Assembly (NCBI RefSeq): GCF_026151205.1
Contig: NC_087078.1
Span: forward strand, 8,572,675-8,636,674
DNA: 64,000 nt
Origin: Bolinopsis microptera
Lineage: Eukaryota; Ctenophora; Tentaculata; Lobata; Bolinopsidae
Reading direction: 5' to 3'
Shown here piece by piece: positions 59,062 to 63,421 of the stretch; the stretch's first letter is position 1, and each line of letters opens with the position of its first letter. A program made the translations under genes and the position numbers. Below the pieces are notes generated by a model, which was given only the letters and a program-made list of their open reading frames with translations, did no database searches and had not been told where the DNA came from.

Positions 59062-62000
59062 AGATAAGTGTAGGGCCTGTCGTGATATCATGGATCGCTT
59101 AGGTTCCACCAGGATCTGGTAGTCCTCATAATTCTGCGGCCTCTATGTTTCGTCATCTCGCACAACTCTTTAAGAATCTTGTGGATTTGGCATGTGAAAA
59201 TTTGCAGCCTTCCAGACATTGATTGGGTTAACGAGGTGCCGTACGTCACCTCAAGATCGGGTGACAGGGGGCTGACCAGGCCAGAACCCAATTGATTGGG
59301 TCTTAGGTCACGTGATTATGAGCCTGAGGTCACGTGACTATGACGTCACCAGACCTTCCTCTCCGTTTCCCGCTCATTGGACCAGGTGAGCTTGCATGCA
59401 TGTGAATGTGGGTGTAAGTATAGCTGTACGGTAGTTTATACCTAATTAAACCCCTATAGAAACCGAAAATTTATTTTCTGGCAGAAAGCTAGAAATCTAC
59501 CAAAATATCGTCATTGTTTTAAATTTATTTTGATGACCATTCCTGACCTAAAATCGCACGAGAAATCGATTAAACTTGGTTTCAGAACTCAACAATGCTT
59601 CCTTATGTCTTAAAATCCATGTTTTATCAATACAATCAACATCTCGATCATGTAGTTAAACTTATTACTTAACGGATTCAAGTATAGTTACGCGGTAGAC
59701 AAACTAAAACAAAATTGTAAGTTTATAACCTACCAGGACCTGCGCCGAGTTAAACTCGTCGAAGGTTATATTTGGAACAAATATTTTACGAGTATCACCC
59801 GTTAAATAAACTTATATGTATAAAAACCTCGTGTTATGTGGCAGTTGTATTGCAATTTGTGCAATTTCAGTTGGGCAGCTTTTTTTAAGTGTCTGTTATT
59901 TCAATTTTCGTAATTAATCTGGAAGTATTATCGGCATCTTTTCACACATATATGACTACTAGCACATACACAGTGGCCAATAAGCTGTACACAGCAGGGT
60001 TTCAGCGTAATAATTGATCTTTTAGAATGTTCTAGTTTGAGTGTAGAATAGCCATTAGAGCTGACTGTAAGATTAGGTAGGATTAGTGTATAGCTTTTGG
60101 ATGGTTTTGCGGAGTAAGACACGCGTTAGTAGGGTGCATTAGTTAACAATATGTGGCCAATTGCAACAGCTTATTCTACTGATAGAATATATCGACCAAT
60201 GGCAGCAGTTTTAATCAAGATTACGCTAAAAAGGCTGCTAAATGACGCAAGAAATGCAAGCATTATTTTAATCGTTACATTTTCAATTCGTTACAATTTT
60301 CCATTCAAAAATGAAGTTTTCCTCCCTTATTGGAGAGCCACTTGAGTTACCTCAAACGATTCCTTCGACTAGGAGAGTGCTTCAATTATTACTTCTTAGC
60401 AGTGACCAGCAACCGAAGGTACAGATTAACAGAATTCTGACCTTGGTGGCTGAGGAACTTGTTCAATTTTATGCTGAATCTTAACAGTAAAGCCAACATC
60501 TTCAAGTATGTAGTTTCAATTTCCCTTGTAAATATTGTCGCTGAATATATGATCAAGCTATTAGATATATTATTACTTGCAACTTTACACGTGAATTTTT
60601 TATTCTTTTTGTTACAATTCGTTCGATATCCGTAGATTAAGACAGAAGTTGAGGGAGCAAGTGTGAGTATAGAACACGTATCAGCAAATTACGGACTTTG
60701 TTTGTTTATGATGTAACACTTATTTCGGAGGTTTTTATTCATTCATCTTTTACTTTTAGAAAACTGAAGAAACTTCATGCAACCATGAAGAAGATCCGTA
60801 ATTGTAAAGTCAACAATACACCGTACGCCGACTTCCAGGATGAATTGAACAAAAGATTCTCGGTCCTTGGGAAGTTTTCTGACCCGAGGTTTGTAATTCT
60901 CACTCCCATTCAGCGGTATATAGGAATAATGATTATGTAATATGTCGGGATGTATGCAAGGTGCAATAACTTGTTTAATGCAGACAATCGACTGTCTGTA
61001 AAGTACAAAATACACTACATGCTGCACACACATTGTTATAATGTACTAGTACAACTAAAACGATGAACATGGTGCAGGGTGTGTAGTGTGTAATGTGTAG
61101 TTTACTATGTACTGTACAGACAGGCGATCGTCTACATTATAAGCGACACAAATATTATATAGGTTTGTTTACTTTTCCTGTACATGGGGTTTATTATTCA
61201 CACTTGCCAACTATACCCCACTGTGTACACCTCGATTAGTTCCATATTTGGCTCCCACGTTCCATTGGTTTCCCTTGGCCTTGGTCGTGATCTTCAGAGA
61301 TTTTCTATACTTTATTTACTGTAAGGATTCTAACAAGTAAGGTAATATAATACTCCTTTTTACACTGAATTCATTGCTGCAATTTGAGATATATACATTT
61401 CAGCGAAGCAGTGGAATCCCAGCAAGGCAGTGGGATCGTAGCAGAGGAATCCCGGTTGACGACAGAAGACCTCCAGCCTGTCGTTATAAGTACAAATGAA
61501 GAACGGTAGGTAGCCTATGATCAGCAATCCCGTTACATTTCAGAGAATTCCGTGCAACGGTTTTCCGAGGCTCCCTGACACCGTTCTCGCAACAATGAGC
61601 GAGGACAGGAAACATTTATACAGACTCTGTATATCCTGCATGGACGGTACGAATGTTATGACATAAAATCATATTCATAATCACAATTACAATAAACATT
61701 TATATTTTTGAGGGACCTGTGATTGAAATTCAGTCTTTCTTTAACTTCTAAAGAATTTTTTCGTTTCATTAGGATACGCTGATCCAGCATCTACTAGTAA
61801 CAAGATAGGGCCGTTGTGCCACGCGAGGTGGCTGACGATGGCCTCGAGAATACTCCGCTATCACATGTCCACCCCCGAACCTAGCCACCAGCATAAGATC
61901 GAGGTGCTGGCTAGGTACATAATAGAAGTGTACTACAGGGTAATTGAATTTGAACTTCAACAATATATTAAGAACCTTGACATTAAAGTCTTTATTTGTG

Positions 62001-63421
62001 AGGAATTATATTGATATGCTAAACTTCTAAAAATCTTCATTTCTTACTTGAATATTTACTATTAAAAATGCTTTGTTTTTCTGTACTTCTGGTTATCTAT
62101 ATATTATTATAGTTAAAGATGCATTAATGATTATGATATAAGTGGCTCTTATGTCAACCTGTGGTAAGAAGGTGGTAGGGGAGGATAGGAAGTCTGGGCA
62201 ACAAATTGCTGTCGCAGAGCACAGACAGCAAACGAAAAAGCAGAAGAAGTGAAGGTACAATAAATCAGATATACTGTATTTCCTAAGTGGCTCACAGGCA
62301 GGAGCTCAACCATTATTTCTTGTATTGTCACAAAAAACGTCTGTAGCTTAACTTAATTTCAGATCACATCAATCATTATAATGGATTATAAATAATGCTA
62401 AACATTAGCCATATTAACTAAAGAGTATTATGTAGGCTTTTAACAACCATATAATGCTTTATATCCCACACCCAAGTAACGGAAATGCAATTGATTTTAA
62501 CCTGTCGACAATATTTCAGAAAAGATTCCCGCAAGCAAGCATGTTCCTTCGTTCTGCTCTGATCTCTACTCTGTTACTAACTGATGATGGACTTTGATAC
62601 GATTCGTTGATATGATTTTTTAAAGTATTGTATACAGCTTGCACTTAACCATATGGTTCAGACAAAAGGACAATTAAACTGGTGTTTTGTCTTTAACGGA
62701 TGATACTCGTAAAATATTACCTTCGACAAGTTTAACTCGGCGCACGTCCTGGCAGGTTATAAACCTAATTTTGTTTTAGTTTGTCTACCGCGTAACTATA
62801 CTTGAATCCGTTAAGTAATAAGTTTAACTACATGATCGAGATGTTGATTGTATTGATAAAACATGGATTTTAAGACATAAGGAAGCATTGTTGAGTTCTG
62901 AAACCAAGTTTAATCGATTTCTCGTGCGATTTTAGGTCAGGAATGGTCATCAAAATAAATTTAAAACAATGACGATATTTTGGTAAATTTCTAGCTTTCT
63001 GCCAGAAAATAAATTTTCGGTTTCTATAGGGGTTTAATTAGGTATAAACTACAGTACAGCTATACTTACACCCACATTCACATGCATGCAAGCTCACCTG
63101 GTCCAATGAGCGGGAAACGGAGAGGAAGGTCTGGTGACGTCATAGTCACGTGACCTCAGGCTCATAATCACGTGACCTAAGACCCAATCAATTGGGTTCT
63201 GGCCTGGTCAGCCCCCTGTCACCCGATCTTGAGGTGACGTACGACACCTCGTTAACCCAATCAATGTCTGGAAGGCTGCAAATTTTCACATGCCAAATCC
63301 ACAAGATTCTTAAAGAGTTGTGCGAGATGACGAAACATAGAGGCCGCAGAATTATGAGGACTACCAGATCCTGGTGGAACCTAAGCGATCCATGATATCA
63401 CGACAGGCCCTAAGATAAGTG
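59062..63421. mobile_element. 4.3-kb DNA transposon with long TIRs and a 9-bp target-site duplication
   Basis: The element runs from TAGGGCCTGTCGTGATATCA at 59071 to its inverse ending at 63412. Both flanks are AGATAAGTG (59062-59070 and 63413-63421), a perfect 9-bp duplication. The TIRs are about 730-780 bp (to about 59850 and from about 62690) and almost identical. Target duplications of 9 bp suggest Mutator-like elements, or less often Merlin. The interior has spliced coding pieces of a transposase-like gene (see separate entry), not an obvious MULE transposase. Both arms keep a mirrored 67-residue open frame that is probably fortuitous. Confidence 0.85.
60311..61939 (+). pseudogene. Decayed, intron-containing transposase-like gene inside the 59-63 kb element
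   Basis: Pieces with good splice sites are 60311-60484 (MKFSSLIGEPLELP then STRRVLQLLLL), 60760-60888 (KLKKLHATMKKI, to donor GTTTGT), 61404-61505, 61544-61646 (IPCNGFPRLPD, SEDRKHLYRLC) and 61773-61939 (GPLCHARWLTMASRILRYH, IEVLARYIIEVYYR). The last two join in frame. The first has a stop after 58 codons with the expected reading continuing in another frame, and the third has an in-frame stop. I recall the order LP-TR-VL, then DRKHLY, then G-L-HARWLT-A-RILR-Y-ST as a family of repeated, unnamed proteins in arthropods and cnidarians. The catalytic C-terminal part after VYYR is not visible. Confidence 0.5.

Follow-up and report, generated by a model that had tools for sequence, protein, structure and literature searches.

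The window, a 64,000-nucleotide stretch of the genome of the ctenophore Bolinopsis microptera (contig NC_087078.1, positions 8,572,675 to 8,636,674 of the forward strand), carries at its own positions 59071-63412 a cut-and-paste-type DNA transposon of 4342 bp. Inspection of the sequence places a 9-bp target site duplication, AGATAAGTG, at 59062-59070 and again at 63413-63421, confirming the perfect duplication reported in an earlier note on this DNA. The left terminal inverted repeat begins TAGGGCCTGTCGTGATATC, occupies 59071-59716 on the plus strand and pairs with the right repeat at 62767-63412 on the minus strand. Each arm is 646 bp long, with 3 mismatches within the outermost 570 bp, and weaker, gapped inverted similarity continues for about 90 bp beyond, on the left to approximately 59806. 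The earlier description of near-identical repeats of 0.75 kb is upheld as to near-identity, while that length is approached only when the gapped extension is added to the 646 bp.

Other copies with the same ends and 9-bp duplications, for which the earlier note had proposed a search, are dispersed through the genome (264.65 Mb in 232 contigs). The left arm has at least 41 matches, a lower bound, as scoring covered only 40 of the 2312 candidates of the first look. The family-A copies examined number 16: the window element, 13 others with both arms visible, and L050 and L051 (4969 bp and 4297 bp), which were reached through an exon; single arms were left out. All 16 start with TAGGG, share an identical terminal 21 bp and are flanked by perfect 9-bp duplications, which amount to 16 different sequences with no strong consensus. 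Because the whole set shares its ends and has perfect, differing duplications, the duplication at the window element is not a product of chance. L011 and L012 are equal in length with unlike duplications, and therefore represent separate insertions of one shortened type. The extra length of L001 and L002 comes mainly from inserted open reading frames (ORFs) which, by eye, resemble those of non-LTR (long terminal repeat) retrotransposons.

Between its arms the window copy retains three pieces of a spliced, transposase-like gene, all on the plus strand. The DRKHLY exon (61544-61646, E = 4e-9) and the HARWLT exon (61773-61939, E = 1e-17), the latter with an ARW motif, both have AG/GT borders, and the earlier note, which had named these two blocks, was right to treat them as real. 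It overlooked a third, a remnant of the last exon of the same protein at 62142-62249 (VALMSTCGKK...KQKK), from which the ER motif just upstream has been lost; this remnant alone scores E = 0.018, lies in DNA that matches the final exon in L050/L051 at 98% identity across 109 bp, and matches L018, a locus outside family A, at E = 7.7e-5 in blastp-short. The profile used for scoring was built only from family B, lineage C and single-locus composites, all described below, and held zero family-A rows; the smaller E values of an iterated profile, which absorbs its own hits including the window exons, were set aside.

A junction at 62139-62142 marks an internal deletion, for at this point, downstream of the HARWLT exon and before the last exon, L050 and L051 hold about 950 bp more, including additional coding sequence and the last-exon part with QAVER. 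The deletion, at about 62140, also takes the proposed catalytic glutamate (E) out of the window copy, and profile and motif comparisons found no exon there for either of the two proposed catalytic aspartates (D). Without these three proposed residues the copy would therefore be non-autonomous, and the DNA transposon copy at 59062-63421, judged from its sequence, is both internally deleted and non-autonomous. Elsewhere in family A the gene is better preserved. By the iterated profile the last exon is at least partly kept in 12 of the 16 copies (L001, L002, L004, L006, L008-L012, L050, L051 and the window copy) and is without a match in L003, L005, L007 and L013; when the keepers are scored with the profile free of family A, 11 of the 12 reach E values of 1e-15 to 1e-6, the window copy standing at its 0.018. 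A further, middle exon, lost in the window copy, is kept in the right order in L002, L050 and L051.

These exons belong to an orphan protein family that is repeated across the genome. The HARWLT exon has 34 genome matches at 42-100% identity, and the number rises to 109 with a longer query taken from L017; the iterated profile, run over the fetched loci, finds 128 matching segments. At least three lineages can be distinguished, namely A (the window copy, L050, L051 and L014), B, and C (L016, L017, L019, L021 and L022), together with the single loci L018, L055 and L056. Blocks from A, B and C are collinear with a spliced model of 531 amino acids (aa) of the form D...D...CxxH...ARW...ER; this model, like the other composites, consists of predicted exon joins made from DNA alone. 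In order, the blocks are (F/Y)FDG(K/R), with the proposed first D; LG(F/M); G-x-D-x-T, with the proposed second D (D2); C-x-LH-x-x-EL; ARW(L/I)T...RILR or RVLR; N-x-(Y/F/W)-(F/M)-(A/G)-HP(E/H); and (S/A)(V/C)E(R/H), with the proposed E, a block that reads NNNQAVER in family A. The counterpart of the DRKHLY block in lineage C is LSWDQKVLYR, and ARW is invariant across the seven rows of protein alignment A3. A first MAFFT alignment of 72 rows misplaced many exon fragments, so that 26 in-place rows were kept and 46 dropped, by placement and not by content.

Outside family A, the locus most similar to the HARWLT exon is L018 (G000:C12:14946300-14956200), whose open exons include the two blocks with the proposed D residues and the block with the E. 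No inverted ends were recognised in about 10 kb at this locus, which may represent either a domesticated gene or an ancient element.

No relatives of the orphan protein were found in Pfam, in PDB sequences (chance-level matches only), in viral contigs or in prokaryotic genomes. Three Pfam matches below the cut-off were taken as chance: Transposase_21 (E = 0.099, a short piece), and Rrn6_K-rich (E = 0.0034) and CoV_RPol_N (E = 0.082), both with pieces of L017. A literature search over titles and the beginnings of abstracts returned neither hAT-like elements with 9-bp duplications nor this protein family. The earlier note knew such blocks only from unnamed repeated proteins, which fits similar proteins of arthropods and cnidarians, and the family may already be in Repbase under some name. 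In the protein, sequence and literature sources searched, this proposed DDE lineage is nowhere described.

The same protein family also lies within a second set of elements, family B, whose ends differ from those of family A. Family-B ends read TAGTGTGGTTGG, with a TAGTG start in all 11 elements examined, and the inverted repeats are about 2.5 kb or longer with a (CTGT)n tract inside; arms of the two families have no significant similarity (best E = 0.23). The duplications are all perfect, 9 bp in seven of the 11 elements and 8 bp in four, the 9-bp duplication of the 11,134-bp copy on contig C1 being less certain as it sits in a tandem repeat. A homologous exon lies about centrally in 10 of the 11, the exception being a 5.7-kb copy on C8. 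The 11 elements examined do not include the end pairs of lower similarity at C4:2505154/2530288, C1:13326245/13332316 and C13:13429365/13451574, nor the other or single ends of this family. The C1 copy has 23 ORFs of at least 75 aa after filtering of microsatellite ORFs, transposase exons among them. Inspection of these 23 by eye revealed no obvious second enzyme or helicase, and none of the five scanned against Pfam gave a match above the cut-off.

The family-B inverted repeats (L020, L025, L026) also hold, beside a long (CTGT)n tract, a repeated segment RNVIVFG..GSEIYRE.IDTVS.IFQNIGQKPKIVEAC.IA. Presumably it resembles a captured piece of non-LTR retrotransposon ORF1; its ORF has no Pfam match above the cut-off.

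Dispersed copies that have long inverted ends, an invariant TAG terminus and short duplications at their flanks bear the marks of DDE cut-and-paste transposition. The orphan protein keeps a constant position between inverted repeats, in two families with unlike ends, and its pieces follow the order of the D...D...CxxH...ARW...ER protein; because of this position and these motifs we regard it as probably the element's own transposase, as the earlier note had suspected. Our preferred reading, to which we give a probability of roughly 0.78, is that the window copy comes from a cut-and-paste family of Mutator-like anatomy whose autonomous form would encode, in a multi-exon gene, a DDE transposase from a deeply diverged lineage related to hAT.

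The link to hAT comes from profile comparison with L071, an ORF of the same genome that matches PF05699 (E = 3.7e-10) and serves as the hAT yardstick. In hhalign the family profile and L071 align over 79 columns (LGF...D...CxxH) with a score of 46.1 (P = 2.7e-5, probability 74.5%). The highest score among 31 decoys of L071 (30 shuffles, one reversal) is 25.5, rising to 26.0 when a different first row is used, and control ORFs from a long interspersed nuclear element (LINE) and an LTR element score no more than 17.0. The LGF...D...CxxH block alone, picked after the first match, gives P = 2.5e-7 and a score of 44.1, against a maximum of 19.3 in 100 shuffles. Furthermore, the spacing from D2 to CxxH is 29 residues in family B, L018, L017 and L071 alike, and the distance from D2 to the glutamate of ER is 346 (family B), 338 (L018) and 325 residues (L017), compared with 356 in L071. 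Between CxxH and the long insert that precedes the E lies an RW motif, a further hAT feature that we looked for. The ends of both families begin TAG, compatible with the YARNG consensus of hAT ends. Many hAT members possess an N-terminal BED zinc finger; three ORFs that presumably encode N-termini, two from family B and one from L018, had no match in Pfam, the N-terminus being only partly assembled. The earlier note had left its spliced, transposase-like gene unassigned; the family is now better placed near hAT.

The likeness to PF05699/PF14291-type hAT proteins such as L071 has its limits, and several results weigh against the preferred reading. The C-terminal ER region, set in register with L071, scores 8.4, column-shuffled decoys reaching 13.7, and is thus not a significant match; the PF05699 dimerisation domain was not matched at Pfam E values up to 10 by three composites and seven members of alignment A3; and the relation to hAT is based on one type of hAT protein, represented by the single sequence L071. 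The hAT target duplication is usually 8 bp, in contrast to 9 bp in all 16 family-A copies and a mixture of 8 and 9 bp in family B. Inverted ends of 0.65 kb (A) and about 2.5 kb or longer (B), and many introns, are further differences. An AlphaFold model of L017, with introns read through and an alignment of 26 rows of which 25 were exon fragments, was rejected (mean pLDDT 44.9, pTM 0.26), its confidence being too low to read an RNase H fold. Around the lineage-C genes L016, L017, L019, L021 and L022, the 7-10 kb of sequence read showed no recognisable flanking inverted repeats. Because neither the dimerisation domain nor the duplication length agrees, the orphan transposase family is best read as hAT-related and is not filed here as a hAT member.

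An alternative that we consider improbable is that the element is a Mutator-like element (MULE) whose transposase has merely diverged very far. MULEs typically have long inverted ends and 9-bp duplications, the anatomy of the 0.65-kb ends and 9-bp duplications of family A, and this genome has 88 matches to the Pfam MULE model PF10551. Against this, no scanned protein of the family matched PF10551, so that the standard MULE transposase by which the earlier note would have abandoned its view was not found among them. The distance from D2 to the proposed E, 325-346 residues, is well above the approximately 100 residues of MULEs. In hhalign the MULE ORFs L075, L076 and L077 of this genome score 13.3-17.9 against the family and hAT 44-46, a comparison that is itself blind at such distances, for L071 likewise fails to align with these three, and therefore it shows that hAT is nearer and not that MULEs are unrelated. 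The earlier statement that the interior lacks a typical Mutator transposase agrees with these results. The CxxH signature of the orphan family fits a MULE as well, being an instance of the C/DxxH signature which, according to PMC10045372, is common to MULE, hAT, P, Kolobok and Dada.

Membership of Academ, Kolobok, Dada or another DDE superfamily appears just as improbable. AcademH has 9- or 10-bp duplications according to PMC10045372, which fits the duplications seen here, and Kolobok and Dada share the C/DxxH signature. AcademH is also described there as encoding a helicase, and on this it is set apart, none having been seen among the 23 ORFs of the family-B C1 copy by eye (five scanned against Pfam); the match to hAT weighs against an unrelated superfamily in general. 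Zisupton/KDZ elements, according to PMC12730594, have 8-bp duplications, as do four of the 11 family-B elements. Unlike them, the orphan family proteins have no Pfam match at E values up to 10, the KDZ model PF18758 included, although PF18758 finds nothing in this genome or in the control genomes. P-type Pfam models were likewise unmatched by the orphan family proteins, and PF21787 had no match either in this genome or in the control genomes.

The least probable explanation is that the HARWLT exons are a fragment of a host or foreign gene, captured in the manner of Pack-MULEs by an element that owes its mobility to something else. In its favour, L014 (G000:C6:15695500-15705400), in two pieces, and L015 (C6:15739500-15749400) share with the window copy a homologous stretch of 545 bp, exons and introns, at about 95% identity, and no family-A ends were found within the roughly 10 kb read at either; this also weighs against the preferred reading, in that pieces of the transposase gene may spread in other ways too. 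Capture of a host gene would not, however, explain a protein that lies inside the inverted ends of two families with unlike ends, the homologous exon being carried by 10 of the 11 family-B elements. Nor do the exons lead back to a single-copy parent gene, the finding that the earlier note held would speak against it: the 34 and 109 genome matches are of many loci. Because 12 of the 16 family-A copies keep at least part of the last exon and three the middle exon, the DRKHLY and HARWLT exons are, as far as such sequence comparisons reach, remnants of a spliced transposase-like gene and not of a captured host gene. As a separate observation, L015 has a canonical hAT C-terminal fragment next to a repetitive stretch.

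Under the preferred reading, a hAT-related cut-and-paste family, the enzyme made by an autonomous copy would bind the inverted ends and cut both, its metal ligands being the D of (F/Y)FDG(K/R), the D of G-x-D-x-T and the E of (S/A)(V/C)E(R/H). The cut ends would then be joined to a staggered target cut, 9 bp wide in family A and 8 or 9 bp in family B, as judged from the duplication lengths. The window copy would have been mobilised by an enzyme supplied from another copy. A tandem pair of 22-bp subterminal repeats at 59297-59340 on the plus strand, each with the palindrome TCACGTGA, is mirrored at 63140-63183 in the other arm, and may be where the transposase or a host factor binds.

We suggest more tentatively, and at slightly less than even odds, that these families form a eukaryotic DNA transposon superfamily of their own, a sister group of hAT with a hAT-like core and Mutator-like anatomy, which libraries would have missed because of its many small exons. 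If so, the mixture of 8- and 9-bp duplications in family B would represent an enzyme lineage without a strictly fixed stagger. The presence of both lengths in one family makes the determinant of stagger length testable. For the orphan multi-copy proteins the results mean a probable function within elements of defined structure, ends and target duplications included, so that such proteins can be annotated as transposases. Long inverted ends with 9-bp duplications alone need not mean Mutator.

One further group touches the same protein family. L061 and about a dozen other places (for example G000:C1:5919282 and C13:3002612) match the L017 query in the region of the second D only (approximately residues 17-72), at 50-54% identity; this multi-copy group may have arisen from lineage C as one more non-autonomous family.

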